Source: Planctomycetaceae bacterium | GTDB lineage: Bacteria > Planctomycetota > Planctomycetia > Pirellulales > Pirellulaceae | Length of the DNA: 56,240 bases | NCBI GenBank assembly: GCA_002724245.1 | Contig: PBOG01000019.1 | Location: 1-56,240, forward strand | Direction: 5' to 3' | The notes under the pieces: generated by a model | What the model was told of the DNA's origin: nothing | The model's input: only the letters and a program-made list of their open reading frames with translations | The model's database searches: none | Made by a program: the position numbers and the translations under genes | In this document: positions 18,272 to 34,407 of the stretch, in pieces | Layout of the letters: each line of letters starts with the position of its first letter | Position numbering within the stretch: position 1 is the stretch's first letter

Positions 18272-19018
18272 TCAGCGCCCTGCGAGGAGTCGCTCCCCGA
18301 GCGAATCATCCAAATCTGGAATCCCGAAAATTTTGTTAGCCGTTTCCTGTTGAGGGTACTCGACACGATGAAATTCAACCTGCTGCTCTTCCAGCGTCAC
18401 GTAACAACTCCTCGGATCACCATCGCGAGGCTGACCAACACTGCCAACATTGACCATCACTTTGTCACTACTCAAACGATACCGGTTGTTAATATCTGGT
18501 GGGCTAAAGAACTCATTGCTATCGGTGAATACTCCGGGAACATGCGTATGCCCCTGAAAGCAATACTGTTGAATGAGCTGGAATACTCTGGTCATCTTCT
18601 GCGAGTTGTAAACATCTTCCGGAAAAATATATTCGTTCAACGGACTCCGTGCCGAACCATGGACAAACAAGAGATCACCTTCACGGTGATTTCGTTGCAG
18701 CTCACAAAGAAAATCCCAACGCCGTATACGCTGCTGTTCGCCTGTTTCAGCTTCTAACTGTTGTCGCGTCCAAAAAATCGCCCGTTCGGCGCCGCTACTG
18801 AACGCCTCAGGATCAAACAGGGCACCATGGTCATGGTTCCCCAGAATGCAGACCTTAAAATCCATTGCCACGTCCAGGCATTCACAGGGATTCGGCCCAT
18901 AACCGATCACATCACCTAGACAATAGATCTCGTCGACATCTCGCTTGGAGATGTCGTCTAGCACTGCCTGCAGCGCTTCCAGGTTGCCGTGAATATCACT
19001 GATGATCGCTCGCTTCAC
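18272..19018 (-). CDS. Metallophosphoesterase, YfcE/MJ0936-like (copy 1)
   Basis: 248 residues. Calcineurin-like metal sites are intact: [15 protein letters not shown] (D-x-H), [17 protein letters not shown] (GDxxGYG), ILGNHDHG (GNHD), LLFVHGSA and FQGHTHVPG, followed by [15 protein letters not shown]. This is the protein phosphatase/phosphodiesterase group often annotated as YfcE-like; the physiological substrate is unknown. The neighbouring gene at 19344-20099 is a clear paralogue with the same motif order, so this is a tandem duplication. It precedes yidC by about 100 bases on the same strand. Confidence 0.9.
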   Translation of the reverse strand: MKRAIISDIHGNLEALQAVLDDISKRDVDEIYCLGDVIGYGPNPCECLDVAMDFKVCILGNHDHGALFDPEAFSSGAERAIFWTRQQLEAETGEQQRIRRWDFLCELQRNHREGDLLFVHGSARSPLNEYIFPEDVYNSQKMTRVFQLIQQYCFQGHTHVPGVFTDSNEFFSPPDINNRYRLSSDKVMVNVGSVGQPRDGDPRSCYVTLEEQQVEFHRVEYPQQETANKIFGIPDLDDSLGERLLAGR

Positions 19019-19074
19019 AGCGTAACCCTTGACGCAATCTAGCGACCTCTAGCGTAACCCAGGGAGCAGCCAGT

Positions 19075-19311
19075 ATGTTGAACCGCATCAAACACACCCA
19101 CACGCAACGGCTTTCCAGAGCCGCAAACTCAAAGTCTAGGACGACTTACGACAACGGTCAAGCGGCCTCACTGGGCCCCGTTGCCGTCATGTACCAGCCA
19201 CTGCAGGCTGAAGTGTACCAGCCACTGCAGGCTGAAGTGATGTGTAGCGCGGACTCCACAATGCCTGAGGCCAATAAGCTGGTGGGCAAGGCCTGCAGCA
19301 CCCGGTCCTAG
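19075..19311 (+). CDS. Possible small protein (78 aa) with an internal duplicated octapeptide
   Basis: An open frame lies between the two metallophosphoesterase genes and opposite to them. It starts with ATG at 19075, some ten bases after AGGGAG, and encodes a Thr/Ser-rich product with no recognisable domain. A perfect 24-base tandem duplication gives two consecutive copies of YQPLQAEV. I cannot tell whether this is a gene; the in-frame repeat and fair ribosome-binding site argue for it, while the absence of any family resemblance argues against. If it is not a gene, the 19019-19343 interval is a non-coding spacer containing only the repeat. Confidence 0.28.
   Translation: MLNRIKHTHTQRLSRAANSKSRTTYDNGQAASLGPVAVMYQPLQAEVYQPLQAEVMCSADSTMPEANKLVGKACSTRS
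19190..19237. repeat. 24-base perfect tandem duplication
   Basis: Two adjacent identical copies, 19190-19213 and 19214-19237, each TGTACCAGCCACTGCAGGCT followed by GAAG. The third TG after the second copy begins to repeat again. The period is a multiple of three. Confidence 0.95.
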
Positions 19312-19343
19312 CGGACGGACATCGGCACTCGAAAATCCCTCAT

Positions 19344-20099
19344 TCAGCGTCCCGATTTCAAACGATCGCCGAGCATATTATCGAGTTGATCAACGCGGTA
19401 GATCTTGTTGGCAGTGGCCTCGAAATCATATTCAACGCGCCTGAAAATCAGGCGTTGCTCACTCTTATCAAGAATAACGTAGCTGCCACGCGGATCGCTG
19501 TCCCTGGGCTGGCCAACGGAACCCACATTGAACATTGCCTTGTCACCGGTCAGGACAACTTCGCCGCCGAGTTCATCCGGAGAACGAAAATCACCCTCGA
19601 GCGGAAACATGCCCGGAATATGCGTGTGCCCCTGGAAACAGTAGCCTTCAAATCGCGAAAACAAGCCCTCCATTTTCCGCAGGTTGTAGACATCCTCTGG
19701 AAACACATACTCGTTGGTTGGGTCGCGCGGTGAACCATGGACAAAAAGAAGATCGTCCACCTTGTGGGTTCTTGGCAATTCTCCCAGGAAGTCCCAACGT
19801 GCGTTAATTTGATCGCGAGCGCCGACCGCATCCAACTGGTCACGGGTCCAATAGATTGCCTGGAGGGCTACTGGATTGAAGCCTTCGGGATCAAAGAGCG
19901 CAGCTTGATCATGGTTGCCAAGAATCGTCAAAGAACAACTTCGCATCACAGTATCAAGACACTCGCAAGGGTTCGGCCCATATCCAATCACATCCCCCAG
20001 GCACCAAATGTCCTTGATACCTTGCTGACGGATATCTTCCAGAACGGCTCGCAACGCTTCCAGGTTGCCATGAATGTCGCTAATCAGCGCGAGCTTCAC
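19344..20099 (-). CDS. Metallophosphoesterase, YfcE/MJ0936-like (copy 2)
   Basis: 251 residues from a GTG at 20099, chosen because AAGGGAG sits seven bases before it and the protein then starts (M)[19 protein letters not shown], aligning with copy 1; a TTG at 20126 would add nine residues. The metal-binding motifs match copy 1: [57 protein letters not shown] and [13 protein letters not shown]. By eye well over half of the positions are shared with copy 1, so the two arose by duplication. The substrate is unknown. The 388 bases upstream contain no gene I can support. Confidence 0.9.
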
Positions 20100-20487
20100 G
20101 CCATACTCCCTTGTCTTTTCGATCAAACGAGGAACTCAACACAGTACTCCAGCGTACCGCATCTCCCGAACTCTCTCTGCCTCTCCGACGACCTCAACAC
20201 CGGTCCATCTCCGCCTGCCAAACTCGTCTCGATTTGAGCCCGGCGTCAACCTCACCCAGTGTACCAACCTGGGGCCGCGCGATTCAACGTGGGTTCTCGC
20301 CGCACCGCACGATCCCACCAGCAAAGAGCCAGCTAGTGCGTCATCCGATACCACCCGATGACCACTAACGGTATGCCGTCGATAGAGTGCTTTTGACTGA
20401 TGACATATTACTGATGACAACGTCGCAAAAGAACCGCACCCGCGCCGTCGATCCAGACCATGAGCCCGGCGGCCCGGAACATTGGTC
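20100..20487. other. Intergenic region, nothing supported
   Basis: Spacer between metallophosphoesterase copy 2 and groES. Overlapping open frames are present on both strands but they are compositionally simple, lack ribosome-binding sites and show no domain. No tRNA-like or clear hairpin structure was seen. Confidence 0.5.
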
Positions 20488-29304: not shown

Positions 29305-30264
29305 TTATCTCCGGCCTTGCGTTGATACGCTATGCCACCCGGTATCCTCTGAGACCGGCGCCGCAGCCACCGGTTCGACAACTGCGATCGGCACCAGGTA
29401 GCTGGCTTTCGCAACCGCTGGTTGATCCCAGGCAATCAGCGCTGACCGTGCAGCTGACGTTCCCAACCGAGCAGTGTGACGGGGGTTCAACGGAACGGCA
29501 GGCCGACGGCGTGTCGCACTGGGAACGGTGCGATGCGCTGGATCAGGAATAGGCTGCAAGTTGATGTTTTGGTTTGGATCACGTCGCATCGGAGAGACGC
29601 GTGGAACCGCCGGCAAGGCCTGATTACGCTGTCGCTCAAGCAGAGGATTAACCTGTGGCTGTGGCTGAACGCCCGATCCCAGGGTCGGCGCACGGTCGGC
29701 AGCATTCGATTGTGGCGAAGGCACGGTTACCGCAGGGGCGGTGACTGCGGGCGCACCCAATGGAGGCATCGACGGTGTTGGCTGAAGAACTCCAGGCGCC
29801 ATTGTCAGTGCCGGCGCCGTACCCAGCAATGGATTTCCGGGCTGGAGGCCAACCGGTATCGCAGGAGCGCGGTTCGCAAGCGACACCGTCGAATAGACAG
29901 GCCGATAACTGGTTACCGGCACGCGTCGCTGCTGCCATTGGTAAGCCGTACAAGGCTGAAGTGTCGTCTTCATGGCGGAAGTCGTCGGGTCCATGGCGGT
30001 AACTGGCCGGTAATAGGTTACCGGCGCAGGAATCCACTGCGTCTGGTATCTGGTGCGTGGGACATAGCCGACAACAACCCGCTGCAAATTAAAGGGTCGT
30101 GCGACGGAATAAGCACTACCGTTGCCCTGTGGAAACAGGCGCGCCGCCACAGAAGATTCCGCAGGTTGCCCCGTCAACCAGTCCCAAAGACGGCAAGCTT
30201 CCGCACGGCCGGCAGGTAAACTGCCCAATAGCAAGGCGAGACAAAACAAGTGCTTTTTTCTCAT
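29305..30264 (-). CDS. Proline-rich exported protein with YRPV motifs
   Basis: 319 residues from the ATG at 30264; a TTG at 30276 is in frame but less likely. The signal peptide is clear (MRKKHLFCLALLLGSLPAGR, then AEACRLWDWLTG). Two Tyr-rich segments follow (YVPRTRYQTQWIPAPVTYYR, VPVTSYRPVYSTV). A long Pro/Ala/Val-rich low-complexity region makes up the rest. YxxYRPV-type proteins recur in planctomycete genomes but I know of no function; an envelope or structural role is a guess. It is convergent with the prenyltransferase-repeat gene, with stop codons only four bases apart. Confidence 0.75.
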   Translation of the reverse strand: MRKKHLFCLALLLGSLPAGRAEACRLWDWLTGQPAESSVAARLFPQGNGSAYSVARPFNLQRVVVGYVPRTRYQTQWIPAPVTYYRPVTAMDPTTSAMKTTLQPCTAYQWQQRRVPVTSYRPVYSTVSLANRAPAIPVGLQPGNPLLGTAPALTMAPGVLQPTPSMPPLGAPAVTAPAVTVPSPQSNAADRAPTLGSGVQPQPQVNPLLERQRNQALPAVPRVSPMRRDPNQNINLQPIPDPAHRTVPSATRRRPAVPLNPRHTARLGTSAARSALIAWDQPAVAKASYLVPIAVVEPVAAAPVSEDTGWHSVSTQGRR

Positions 30265-30605
30265 ACGAATGCCCAACCGTAAATGGATCAGGGGGTTACG
30301 TCGATATACAACCGCCTATTGGAGCCTAGTTCAAGCCCTGAGAAAACGATAGTCTCTGGTGCCCCGCGCCCTGCGGATCACCAGAAATACATGGGATCAC
30401 ACGGATTGGAGGAAACGTGAGGGCCAGGCCGATCGTACCCACAAAGCGATAAGTCCTTTGGCAGCCGACGTTTGATCGACGACAATGCCCCGCCCAAAGT
30501 ACGCCACGCGTATGGCAGCCTGATAGCCACCCCGGTACCTGAGCCCCTTGTCACAAACCTGCCACTCGAGCAGGCTCTCTCCGGCACATACGGCGGCAAC
30601 CGTTA
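30265..30605. other. Intergenic region with a minus-strand promoter and no supported gene
   Basis: About 340 bases between the proline-rich protein gene and the ATPase gene, both on the minus strand. Short open frames on both strands have no recognisable content. The likely promoter of the proline-rich protein is at 30305-30334. Confidence 0.45.
30305..30334 (-). promoter_or_regulatory. Putative sigma-70 promoter of the proline-rich protein gene
   Basis: On the minus strand TTGAAC (30334-30329) and TGTATA (30310-30305) are separated by 18 bases. The start codon lies about 40 bases further on at 30264. Confidence 0.38.
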
Positions 30606-31322
30606 TCAGGGCGCGGGAACCGTGCCGTCCACAGCCCTCCGTCGGCGGTGTTCAAACAGGTCATAGAGTGCAAACAACGTCTCACGTAAATTGCCTTCCT
30701 GACGGTAGTAGCAGTTTCGCACATCCTCTTCCAGAATCAGGTTCTCAGGACAGGACTGGAGCAAGCGTGAGACAATCTGCTGAACCCATGCCAGCGAAGC
30801 TTTTGTCCGCACCAGCCACGGCAACTGAACATCGCGGTGGCTGGTAACCAGTAAGCCGCAACCACGCCAGCCACACAACCACCGCAATACCCATTGTGCG
30901 AACCGTGGCAACTGTTCAAATCCGTCCACAATTAAACGAGTCCCACTGCGACGCGTTGCCGACAGAGCCTGCTGAAAACCCCGATGCCAGCCCTGTCTGT
31001 GCAATACCACTTTTACGACCGGCGCCGACCGTTGCAGCAACTGAATCTCTAATTGATTGACGAGCGTTGTTTTGCCAGATCCATGCGGCCCTACGATCTG
31101 TCCCCAACCCCGCTCAACTTCAAGTTGTCGCATTAGCTGGTTCAAACAAATACCCGGAAGCGGCTCAAAACATACGCGGCTGGGGTCAATCCAACGCACG
31201 GAAAAAGGATTACTGTCCGGCCAGCGCAATCCACCAGGCGTACCAATAGCCTGCACTGCAAATGAGGACTGTACATCCGGCGACGGCGAACACAACGAAC
31301 AAGCACACTGGAAGAATGTCAC
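30606..31322 (-). CDS. P-loop ATPase of the ExeA/AAA_22 type, last gene of the arrestin-like operon
   Basis: 238 residues starting with GTG at 31322, which overlaps the preceding stop as GTGA. Walker A is GPHGSGKTT (residues 78-86), Walker B is RLIVDGFEQL (129-138), and WRGCGLLVTSHRD (about 152-164) is in a sensor-like position. The C-terminal helices (LILEEDVRNCYYRQEGNLRE) resemble the lid region of STAND/AAA proteins. ATP binding is therefore expected; the motor or switch role and partner are not known. The N-terminal 60 residues contain CACSLC, a possible metal-binding cluster. Its tight overlap with the small arrestin-like gene suggests one complex. Confidence 0.8.
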   Translation of the reverse strand: MTFFQCACSLCSPSPDVQSSFAVQAIGTPGGLRWPDSNPFSVRWIDPSRVCFEPLPGICLNQLMRQLEVERGWGQIVGPHGSGKTTLVNQLEIQLLQRSAPVVKVVLHRQGWHRGFQQALSATRRSGTRLIVDGFEQLPRFAQWVLRWLCGWRGCGLLVTSHRDVQLPWLVRTKASLAWVQQIVSRLLQSCPENLILEEDVRNCYYRQEGNLRETLFALYDLFEHRRRRAVDGTVPAP

Positions 31323-31735
31323 TCGGTCACCTCGGCCTCATAAATCACAGGAGCATCCCCTAACTGAAACGGCACCTCCAGAAACGCGTCTCTTCCCCGA
31401 CCTAAAAAAATACGTACTCGTACACACCACCGGATTTTCACGAGGATTCCAGAATAGCTCAGAGGGGTTCTCGGCAGCGTCGTACGAAAATGCCGCATCG
31501 GCCGTAAATCACCCGTGTTCCGATCTGCGGCAACACGACGCTCGAAATAATGGATGCCGAGATCTTCATCACCCTTTCCCTCGGTGTACCACATCACCGA
31601 AGCTTCAACGGCACGCAAATCCGCCTGCTCCACAGCATCCACCTGGTATTCACAATCAAGCTCCTGGCCAGGCCAAAAAACACGGCCCTGCTCTTTGAGT
31701 CGAATGCTAATCAACGGGTCTAACATGCCGTTCAC
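31319..31735 (-). CDS. Small soluble arrestin-like beta-sandwich protein
   Basis: 138 residues from a GTG at 31735, whose first bases overlap the stop of the membrane gene as GTGA; its own stop overlaps the ATPase start in the same way. There is no signal peptide or membrane segment. The strand pattern (ISIRLKEQGRVFWPGQELDC, ADLRAVEASVMWYTEGKGDE, LSYSGILVKIRWCVRVRIFL) is that of an arrestin/SpoOM-type beta sandwich, and it resembles in layout the C-terminal region of the neighbouring membrane protein. The function is unknown; arrestin folds usually bind other proteins. The fold is an inference from pattern only. Confidence 0.7.
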   Translation of the reverse strand: MNGMLDPLISIRLKEQGRVFWPGQELDCEYQVDAVEQADLRAVEASVMWYTEGKGDEDLGIHYFERRVAADRNTGDLRPMRHFRTTLPRTPLSYSGILVKIRWCVRVRIFLGRGRDAFLEVPFQLGDAPVIYEAEVTE

Positions 31736-32766
31736 TCGCTCACCACAGGTGCAATCACCACTGGAAAACCTCGCTCAAATGACTGCCAACCCGTGCCCTG
31801 GCCGCGCACCATAAGCTTCCATTGTATGACGTTGTGCTGGCCCTGAAACGAGTGCATTGTCTTCTCTGAAATCTGTAGCGGGCAACGTTCTTCATAGGGC
31901 TGTTCACGACGGATCTGACAATCCTGCCCTCGATGAATCAACTCCTCGACGACGACGCGACGCTCTGTGCGGACGTCGGTACCCTGTCGATAAGTCACCT
32001 CTTCTTCACATACCAAAAGCACTTCCAGCGTCTGCAAATGCAACCGACCGCACTGCGACATGTAGACTTCATATGCGTCCCCCGGATGCAAGGGGTGATC
32101 GGAAATCTCTACGGTCGTAGGGCCGATCCCGCCGCGCATGCGCACCTGCCGAACAAAAAACACGCTCGCCCAGCCGGCCATGGCACCGAAAAAACTGGTC
32201 AACGCAATCAGGGCGATTTGCAGATTACCAGTTACCCACTCGCGAAACAGTACCAGCAACAACACAATCGCAATGCCATTACAAACCAGGCATAAGAAAC
32301 CCGTCGCCAGAAAGGCGAGCGTCTGAGTCTGAATGACTGGCAATCGATATCGCAGCTCGACACCGGGACTGTTGTTCAGTGACTTGTGATCTGGGACGCC
32401 AGGATGTTCACTGAGCGAGGGCAGCTCGTCATTGATCAGATCAATATCTGCAGCGCGCTTAACAAGTGCCGCCCGACGTTCCGTTGACGTCCCGGTCTGC
32501 AAAGCGGTGAGCACCAGCCCCCCACCACCAATCAGCAGAAACGAGGTAGAAATCAGCACCATCAACCAGAATTGAAATCCGACCGGTGGCTCGAGCAGCA
32601 CTGCTGATGGCGACTGGGTATACCTTATGAAGACGTAAACCTGAACGATCCCGCCTAGTAACAAAAGCAGTCCAAAAAAAGATGCTTCTCCAACACTGCC
32701 AGCCAACCTGGATCCCGTCCGGCGCCGCCCTCGCTTCTTCTGCCAAACTCGAAACCACCTCGACAC
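31732..32766 (-). CDS. Four-helix membrane protein with a C-terminal arrestin-like domain
   Basis: 344 residues from a GTG at 32766, chosen because AAAGGAGA lies about ten bases upstream; longer non-ATG starts add a Ser/Gly-rich segment without support. A basic N-terminus (RVWQKKRGRRR) is followed by hydrophobic segments at about 29-48, 64-88, 149-173 and 183-206. Between the second and third lies a soluble loop; after the fourth comes a soluble domain of about 135 residues with PGDAYEVYMSQCGRLHLQTL, LEVLLVCEEEVTYRQGTDV and IQWKLMVRGQGTGWQSFERG, which reads as an arrestin-like sandwich. It is the first gene of a three-gene operon. I know of no assigned function. Confidence 0.75.
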   Translation of the reverse strand: MSRWFRVWQKKRGRRRTGSRLAGSVGEASFFGLLLLLGGIVQVYVFIRYTQSPSAVLLEPPVGFQFWLMVLISTSFLLIGGGGLVLTALQTGTSTERRAALVKRAADIDLINDELPSLSEHPGVPDHKSLNNSPGVELRYRLPVIQTQTLAFLATGFLCLVCNGIAIVLLLVLFREWVTGNLQIALIALTSFFGAMAGWASVFFVRQVRMRGGIGPTTVEISDHPLHPGDAYEVYMSQCGRLHLQTLEVLLVCEEEVTYRQGTDVRTERRVVVEELIHRGQDCQIRREQPYEERCPLQISEKTMHSFQGQHNVIQWKLMVRGQGTGWQSFERGFPVVIAPVVSE

Positions 32767-33129
32767 GGAATTGCGTCTCCTTTGAAATCCACCGCTGCCA
32801 TGTTTCGTACCGCAACCAACCACAGTAACGCCAGGAGTCGGAATATACGCTGGCCTGCCCGGCCTGTGTCGCTCGTTTCCCGTATTTGCTGACGACACAC
32901 TTCCGCAGGCACTTCCCTGCCTGGCGAACGCCTGGACAGCAGGGCTCGAGAAAGCAGACAATCGGCTCTAATTCCAGAACAAGCCCCCTACTGTCACACG
33001 CTTCGTCGTTCTGAGCGTGTATCCTGGCCCGAATATGATGGTCACGCAAGCTGCCTGGATGTGGCCGCTTCGCCAACAGGTGGGTAGAATGTGCCGCTAA
33101 AGTTAGCCCCCGCACTGGAAGGGATCCGC
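32767..33129. other. Divergent intergenic region upstream of the arrestin-like operon
   Basis: About 360 bases between the GTG of the membrane protein gene and the ATG of the PQQ-like gene. It includes an in-frame upstream extension of the membrane gene that I consider non-coding. A TATGAT at 33034-33039 could be a -10 box for the plus-strand gene; no -35 partner is clear. Confidence 0.4.
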
Positions 33130-34407
33130 ATGACCTGTGCTCACAGAGGAACATCCACCCGTTTCCTGGCCTCACTACTCATCGCTTCTGCGATGTTCCC
33201 AACCTGCCTGCCCACCGCGGTTGGCGGGGACTGGCCACAGCTTCTCGGGCCCACTCGAAATGGCTCGGCAACCGATGAGAATTTATTGGAAACCTGGCCG
33301 GCAGCGGGCCCTCAGAAACTCTGGTCGGTATCACTGGGCCAAGGCTACGCCGGTCCGGTAGTCGCGGGCATCCGAGTCATCGCGTTTCATCGTGTCGGTA
33401 ACCAGGAGCAGCTGCTCTGTTGCCATCGGGACACCGGAAAAAAACTCTGGCAAACTAGTTTTCCAGCGAGATATGCCGGTGGCGTCAATCCAGACACTGG
33501 TCCACGTTGCACGCCAGTCATACACGCAAACCGAGTCTACGCATTCGGTGCTGCAGGCGTCATGCACTGTGTCACACTCGACACGGGAAAGGCCGTCTGG
33601 TCCCGTGATCTCTATGGAGACTATCGGGGAGATGAAGGCTATTTTGGCGCAGGGAGCAGCCCGATCGTTGCCGACAACAAGTTGCTGGTAAATCTTGGCG
33701 GACGGGACAACGCCGGCCTTGTTGCGCTCACCCTGGAAAGCGGCAAGACCGTCTGGCAAGTTACTGATGAACGCGCCAGTTACTCATCACCCACGGTCGT
33801 TCAAGTCAAGGGTAAAACCCACGTCGTCTTCGTAACACGGCTGAACACCATTTGTGTGTCAGCAGACAATGGAAAAACTGCGTTCCAGTTTCCCTTCGGT
33901 CGTCGCGGCCCCACGGTCAACGCAGCAACCCCACTCGTATTCAACGGCCACCTGTTCGTAAGCGCTGCATACGGTGTCGGCGCGCGTTTGACGCGAATTG
34001 CGAATGGTACCGCCACCGAGGTTTGGAGTAACGACACCTCGATGTCAAGCCAATATTCAACATGTGTATTTCATCGCCAATTTCTCTATGGGACACACGG
34101 TCGAGAAGATTTCAACAACGGAGAATTGCGCTGTATTGCCGCGCAAAACGGCCGCGTTCGCTGGTCGGTTCCCGGTTTCGGCGTCGCCAACGTACTGCTG
34201 TCAGAAGACCGACTGCTGGCACTGAATACAACCGGTCAACTCACCCTGGCTGCTGCGAACAGCAGCGAATACCAGAAAATCGCACAAGCGTCGGTAAGCC
34301 GTGGAACTACACGGGCCGTGCCAGCGCTTGCCCATGGCCTATTCCTGTTTCGAGCCAATACGCGTTCCAAAAGCGATCTGGTCGCACTGGTGGTCGGCAA
34401 ACGGTAA
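33130..34407 (+). CDS. Exported PQQ-like beta-propeller protein
   Basis: 425 residues from the ATG at 33130 behind GAAGGGATCCGC. A signal peptide is present (FLASLLIASAMFPTCLPTAV) followed by GGDWPQLLGPTRNGSATDE, the typical start of planctomycete PQQ_2 propellers. Blade motifs recur: TGKKLWQTSF, TGKAVWSRDLYGDYRGDEG, SGKTVWQVTDERASYSSPTV and NGRVRWSVPGFGVANVLLSE. Such propellers may act as binding scaffolds; no catalytic site was seen and PQQ binding is not implied. Location is probably periplasmic. It stands alone between spacers of about 360 and 270 bases. Confidence 0.88.
   Translation: MTCAHRGTSTRFLASLLIASAMFPTCLPTAVGGDWPQLLGPTRNGSATDENLLETWPAAGPQKLWSVSLGQGYAGPVVAGIRVIAFHRVGNQEQLLCCHRDTGKKLWQTSFPARYAGGVNPDTGPRCTPVIHANRVYAFGAAGVMHCVTLDTGKAVWSRDLYGDYRGDEGYFGAGSSPIVADNKLLVNLGGRDNAGLVALTLESGKTVWQVTDERASYSSPTVVQVKGKTHVVFVTRLNTICVSADNGKTAFQFPFGRRGPTVNAATPLVFNGHLFVSAAYGVGARLTRIANGTATEVWSNDTSMSSQYSTCVFHRQFLYGTHGREDFNNGELRCIAAQNGRVRWSVPGFGVANVLLSEDRLLALNTTGQLTLAAANSSEYQKIAQASVSRGTTRAVPALAHGLFLFRANTRSKSDLVALVVGKR

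Follow-up and report, generated by a model that had tools for sequence, protein, structure and literature searches.

A conserved planctomycete operon predicted to encode a split, membrane-anchored arrestin-like pair and an AAA+-like ATPase

The window, that is the whole stretch of 56,240 nucleotides analysed here, is contig PBOG01000019.1 (positions 1–56,240; assembly GCA_002724245.1) of a Planctomycetaceae bacterium (Planctomycetota; Planctomycetia; Pirellulales; Pirellulaceae), and the family, order, class and phylum referred to in all counts are those of this organism. Three consecutive genes on its minus strand are designated M, S and A. M (31,732–32,766) encodes a predicted membrane protein of 344 residues with four transmembrane (TM) helices and a C-terminal arrestin-like lobe, S (31,319–31,735) a predicted single arrestin-like lobe of 138 residues without a TM helix, and A (30,606–31,322) a predicted AAA+-like P-loop ATPase of 238 residues. 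The two 4-base GTGA overlaps by which the preliminary description joined the three genes are present in the sequence, at 31,732–31,735 (M/S) and 31,319–31,322 (S/A). The GTG start of M at 32,766 sits inside a longer open frame in the ORF list, and AGGAG is found 10 nt upstream of it. The start of S may be the ATG at 31,726 instead of the overlapping start, because S in the related locus L003 (loci are numbered with L, genomes with G) has no earlier start available; the first possible start there is the ATG matching 31,726, which leaves M and S without an overlap. A scan for promoters and terminators around the operon gave no clear excess, with 2 and 5 sites where shuffled sequence averaged 1.7 and 4.4.

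Beyond A, on the same strand, is a fourth gene, Y (29,305–30,276; likely start ATG 30,264), encoding a Tyr/Pro-rich, apparently exported protein. On the other side, a PQQ beta-propeller gene (33,091–34,407, plus strand; PF13360, 82 bits) runs divergently from the operon. This gene is a frequent upstream neighbour: of 40 loci with M, 17 have it, 16 times divergent and once in the same direction, and the divergent arrangement is kept in other families too; we do not claim it as a component. Elsewhere in the window (18,272–20,126) a tandem pair of similar metallophosphoesterase-like genes was seen, both of which carry a particular string of 11 protein letters in their translations.

Comparison with locus L002 gave dN/dS values of 0.074 for M, 0.069 for S, 0.212 for A and 0.177 for Y, and comparison with L003 gave 0.078 for M and 0.230 for Y, the ratio being computable there for these two and not for S and A. 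Purifying selection on the three operon genes therefore argues against a chance pattern of open frames, and M, S and A are real, conserved genes. None of the window proteins M, S, A and Y scored above the Pfam cut-off of any family, and M, S and Y gave no NCBIfam match; matches to Holin, EMP70, CcmH, T2SS-I and GPCR-like models, with E values of at least 0.05, were taken as chance.

The Walker motifs of A, described as intact in the preliminary description, are present and conserved across a family alignment of 52 sequences. Walker A (GPHGSGKTT, residues 78–86; 31,065–31,091, minus strand) has G81, G83 and K84 invariant, and Walker B (LIVDGFEQL, residues 130–138; 30,909–30,935, minus strand) has D133 invariant and E136 in at least 90% of the sequences. 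The alignment also displays a conserved NPF start, a TxH and a GNLRE. We read the TSH of A at residues 160–162 (30,837–30,845, minus strand), with H162 invariant, as sensor-1-like, and GNLRE at residues 210–214 (30,681–30,695, minus strand), with R213 invariant, as sensor-2-like. A is thus a predicted AAA+-like P-loop ATPase. The earlier assignment to an ExeA type was not supported: the label is not specific, because the best Pfam match, AAA_22, reaches 23.5 bits against a cut-off of 27, and relatives of A match AAA_16, NACHT, STAND and Hda models about equally well. A shares its Walker motifs, sensor-like positions and GNLRE with AAA+/STAND ATPases (AAA_22, AAA_16, NACHT, Hda) and differs from them in being small, without extra domains and below every curated cut-off among the Pfam matches listed; its one NCBIfam match, to mobB, is also below cut-off. 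In three genomes of one genus (L145, L147 and L148) a lone A lies directly behind a gene of the metallo-beta-lactamase fold, with a 4-base overlap between the two in L145 and L147, where Walker B is without its usual E (LDGAGLL and LDSAGLL).

The structure of S was predicted with AF2 from three sequences, giving seven strands at moderate confidence (pLDDT 59.4). All 14 matches of this model at E ≤ 0.001 in a Foldseek search of the PDB belong to the arrestin clan, among them ARRDC3, Spo0M (5cl2), beta-arrestin and the N-domain of TXNIP/VDUP-1. Unrelated beta-sandwiches were weaker, with GH3 enzymes and a carbohydrate-binding module from E 3e-3. By VIA, S superposed on the TXNIP N-domain (4gej_B) with a Z of 10.1 and an rmsd of 3.4 over 121 aligned residues, and on Vps26 with a Z of about 10; SoxYZ (Z 8.6) and dextranase (Z 8.1) were the best unrelated rows. 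Within a model of moderate confidence, these comparisons show the predicted fold of S to be arrestin-like, as the preliminary description had proposed, and a predicted fold of another kind, which it had named as refuting, was not the outcome for S.

At the level of family models, the window S reached neither the Arrestin_N nor the Arrestin_C gathering score in Pfam and had no arrestin match. Likewise, none of nine scanned S proteins from loci in which M, S and A are separate genes (type I) reached a Pfam arrestin cut-off, the best being Arrestin_C at 16.9 against 27.7 bits. A profile built from type I S proteins only placed TXNIP on top among PDB sequences, yet only at E 0.22. The same profile picked up the S-lobe of eight fused proteins with domain E values of 6e-5 to 2e-12, in a small ORF set.

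These fusions define a second architecture (type II), in which A is followed by one gene encoding an S-lobe, a TM segment or hairpin, an M-lobe and a tail. It was found with A adjoining in eight loci (L153–L158, L160 and L181), the gap being 780 nt in L155, and part of the 5′ end of the long L160 ORF is probably untranslated. In three further loci (L163, L180 and L183) a fusion is present but no clear A lies nearby. The reverse order, M then S in a single reading frame, occurs in L046, L159, L161, L162 and L177. That the lobes are fused in either order is an argument for their acting together.

The S-then-M fusions also connect the family to named arrestin models. All four that were scanned passed the Arrestin_N cut-off (L153, 46.3 bits; L155, 51.9; L157, 55.6; L181, 65.3), two passed that of Arrestin_C (L153, 36.4 bits; L181, 32.0) and three that of Spo0M (L153, L155 and L157), and these fused relatives lend the arrestin-like reading of S support beyond the fold match. 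The two M-then-S fusions scanned passed no arrestin cut-off, with Arrestin_N at 18.4 against 24.9 bits in L161 and no match in L159. A two-lobed protein of 316 residues (L164:5275–6225) passes both the Arrestin_N and the Arrestin_C cut-offs, and its genome (G322) has an M-S-A operon too. In genome G006 a split type I operon (L067) and a type II A with a fused arrestin gene (L160) lie a few kb apart.

For M, the AF2 model is of low confidence (pLDDT 48.9) and shows a short N-terminal helix and four long ones, followed by strands. The helices (22–51, 61–114, 143–179 and 182–211) would form two TM hairpins across residues 22–211 (32,134–32,703, minus strand), and residues 217–340 (31,747–32,118, minus strand) a beta lobe. 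A Foldseek search with this poor model gave no match at E ≤ 0.001; TXNIP and ARRDC3 were among the top rows. A profile of M, searched against the second lobe of eight fusions, matched seven of them at E 3e-7 to 2e-18 and that of L160 at E 0.0019. At the level of sequence profiles, the C-terminal lobe of M is thus shown to be homologous to the second lobe of the arrestin-domain fusions. The four membrane helices and the C-terminal lobe of the preliminary description are supported by the low-confidence model and by this homology. Aligned directly by hhalign, S and M gave a probability of 4.6%, though with an E value of 0.0087.

The non-membrane segments of M, as chosen by us, contain in order 9, 0, 7, 0 and 3 K+R and 0, 1, 8, 1 and 0 D+E, so that the loop between TM2 and TM3 has seven basic residues, yet eight acidic ones as well. 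An N-in/C-in topology, with charge bias as its one line of support, would place the lobe of M in the cytoplasm, on the same side as S and A. Matches to DUF3592 (PF12158) were obtained in 21 of 53 M family members at E values up to 1 (best 1.6e-6), and two relatives passed its cut-off of 25.3 bits (M of L167, 52.8; L159, 28.3). The window M had no DUF3592 match in the Pfam scan and did not reach the gathering score, because its lineage has just a short TM1–TM2 loop at the place of DUF3592. Some M relatives thus resemble DUF3592 proteins in carrying this domain between TM1 and TM2, whereas the arrestin-like lobe of M is additional.

The distribution of the three genes was examined at several depths. 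Single-sequence searches matched M in 95 of 100 genomes of its own family, S in 163 of 196 genomes of the order and A in 54 of 198 genomes of the class. A profile survey of the class then used one set of 119 genomes of at least 95% completeness, with thresholds of 1e-3 (S), 1e-6 (M), 1e-8 (A) and 1e-5 (Y) and at most 37, 18, 26 and 46 candidates, respectively, scored per genome; with such differing thresholds and limited candidates, absences in the survey are possibly false, and two A genes were indeed recovered locally (L155 and L158). M was found in 43 genomes, S in the identical 43 and A in 38, with A in none of the 76 genomes outside the M-S set (Fisher p 5e-26, a guide only because the genomes are related). 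Five of the 43 M-S genomes are without A at threshold. Two of these (G031 and G337) have the divergent A by a fused gene at L155 and L158, which would bring A to 40 of 43, and in the other three (G343, G358 and G363) no A was seen in the stretches retrieved.

M and S lie within 500 bases of each other or are fused in 42 of 43 genomes; in the exception, G131, they are on separate contigs, M off the contig edge and S 81 bases from one. In 33 of 38 genomes no more than 1 kb separates S and A. The preliminary description had treated rare adjacency in a survey as evidence against its proposal, and these counts show the genes to be regular neighbours. Where S and A are apart, A is on another contig (G140, G292 and G301) or 5 Mb away (G273), and these four genomes keep a strong A away from M-S; in the fifth exception, G276, A is weak (E 1.2e-9) and possibly no orthologue. 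G059, G086, G036 and G023 also yielded lone A genes. M, S and A co-occur and are retained together.

At the depth of the phylum, M turned up in 20 of 148 genomes, 13 of them outside the class. In nine of the 13 loci (L171–L179) the order M, S, A is kept, with M interrupted in L173 and M and S fused in L177; the others are a type II locus (L181), the fusions of L180 and L183 without A nearby, and an M-like match alone (L182). Two scans of viral contigs with the S and M profiles returned no relative. Overall, the earlier picture is mostly supported, in the predicted fold of S, the helices and C-terminal lobe of M, the motifs of A and the clustering; its ExeA-type assignment is not, and the lobe fusions, the fourth linked gene and conservation past the class are additions to it.

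We give an even chance to the proposal that the operon specifies an arrestin-type adaptor of two lobes, split between genes and anchored in the membrane, together with an AAA+-like ATPase of its own. M would hold one arrestin-like lobe at the cytoplasmic face of the membrane, and S, as the second lobe, would dock on it to complete a bilobed adaptor; in some relatives a single fused chain takes the place of the two. This adaptor would bind a membrane or envelope client, and A would spend ATP on loading, stripping or remodelling the complex of adaptor and client. Y, apparently exported, would be the best candidate for the client, or for a downstream effector, in Pirellulales-type genomes. The physical M-S-A complex, the ATP-driven step and the identity of the client are what we infer.

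The neighbours of A bear on two other readings. They were counted in 92 loci fetched around M, S or A, 69 of which have A and some of which share a genome (L067 and L160); such a set controls for position within some 5–8 kb only, and loci from L092 onwards were covered in part. Gene X matched eight times, always after A, seven times within 150 bp and twice at lone-A loci; a histidine kinase matched six times, always after A and once at a lone-A locus, and STAS was found in four loci (in L069, STAS at 41.3 bits and HisKA_3 at 29.5 bits). Varying sets of X, STAS and/or a HisKA_3-type kinase follow A in L066–L069, L071, L094, L098 and L134–L136, and in L134–L136 the set is 3′ of A even with A away from M-S. 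It is possible, if doubtful, that the arrestin pair serves at the membrane as a scaffold sensing envelope state and that A is an NTP-dependent switch to a histidine kinase/STAS pathway, in which, with the same reserve, ATP hydrolysis would time signalling and do no mechanical work. The recurrence of these genes behind A in one locus group, lone-A loci included, favours such a switch, as do weak matches of A homologues to STAND/NACHT NTPase models; however, the neighbours are few among the 92 loci, none is at the window, and most loci have M-S-A without X, STAS or kinase.

Y is linked to A by position. Its profile gave 19 matches in the 92 loci, every one starting within about 1 kb after A and 18 on the same strand, and Y adjoins the lone A of L150 on its 3′ side. 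In the class survey Y was found in 28 of 119 genomes and lies no more than 1.5 kb from A in 19 of these; five of the others are elsewhere in M-S genomes and four in genomes without M-S-A. The protein has a core of YxPxT...PVTxYRP...YTxYR. It also has an N-terminus that we read as signal-like and, by eye, a recurring C-terminal end, and it is single-copy in its own genome. These last three features, with the proximity to A, would suit a device in which M-S-A delivers exported Y to the wall or outer membrane of the planctomycete, or anchors it there. We nevertheless regard this as unlikely, since Y matched nothing in Pfam or NCBIfam, 19 of the 43 M-S genomes are without a Y match (24 have one at threshold), and no Y match was found in the seven M-S-A genomes outside the order (G273, G292, G296, G301, G322, G341 and G421). 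PMC8567305 names YTV wall proteins; a link of Y to these is only a lead. Both the signalling and the Y-assembly readings could overlap with the adaptor-ATPase model.

That unrelated housekeeping genes merely share a transcription unit without forming a complex is highly improbable: neighbourhoods here can be stable, and the divergent PQQ gene is conserved too, but lobe fusions in two orders, the A-first gene order and retention of A apart from M-S would not be expected. A role in defence was dropped, as M, S and two fusions had no PADLOC match and S is so widespread in the order; A gave only weak P-loop matches in PADLOC (best E 0.00025).

The adaptor-ATPase model can be set beside systems already described. 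Bacterial and archaeal Spo0M (PF07070) belongs to the arrestin clan, according to PMC2515105. The S model matches its structure and three fusions pass its cut-off; the window M and S had no PF07070 match in Pfam. Spo0M is a soluble single chain, whereas the M-S pair is divided between two genes, would have one of its lobes anchored in the membrane and is inherited along with an AAA+-like ATPase. The TXNIP/ARRDC alpha-arrestins and the retromer subunit Vps26 are alike in the superposition of S, and the type II fusions, with an N-lobe and then a second lobe, follow the order of eukaryotic arrestins. We know of no TM hairpin between the lobes, nor of an AAA+ partner gene, in eukaryotic alpha-arrestins or Vps26, and at M-S-A there is no evidence of ubiquitin, clathrin or vesicle traffic. 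MoxR AAA+ ATPases have vWA/DUF58 membrane partners, and they offer an analogy, a small AAA+ protein whose partner has a TM hairpin and a binding domain; the M-S-A partner, by contrast, is arrestin-like and not vWA, and no MoxR model was among the 25 Pfam matches listed for A.

The preliminary description knew of no described system with this gene set. Literature searches, with preprints and most subscription papers outside their scope, likewise found, among the papers listed and by title and opening of the abstract, no such M-S-A system or bacterial membrane arrestin, and nothing joining DUF3592 with arrestin or describing bacterial operons of an arrestin-like protein with an AAA ATPase. We tentatively suggest that the operon may represent an undescribed kind of machine across the phylum, in which an arrestin adaptor of two lobes, either split or fused and anchored in the membrane, is coupled to its own AAA+ ATPase for sorting or remodelling proteins of the envelope. 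If true, this would be a prokaryotic counterpart, in logic, to the arrestin/Vps26 cargo adaptors, with no claim of common ancestry. A conserved membrane arrestin with a co-inherited ATPase offers a testable route to the role of bacterial arrestin folds. Moreover, planctomycetes are noted for their invaginated membranes (PMC8567305), and M-S-A may bear on the organisation of their unusual envelope.
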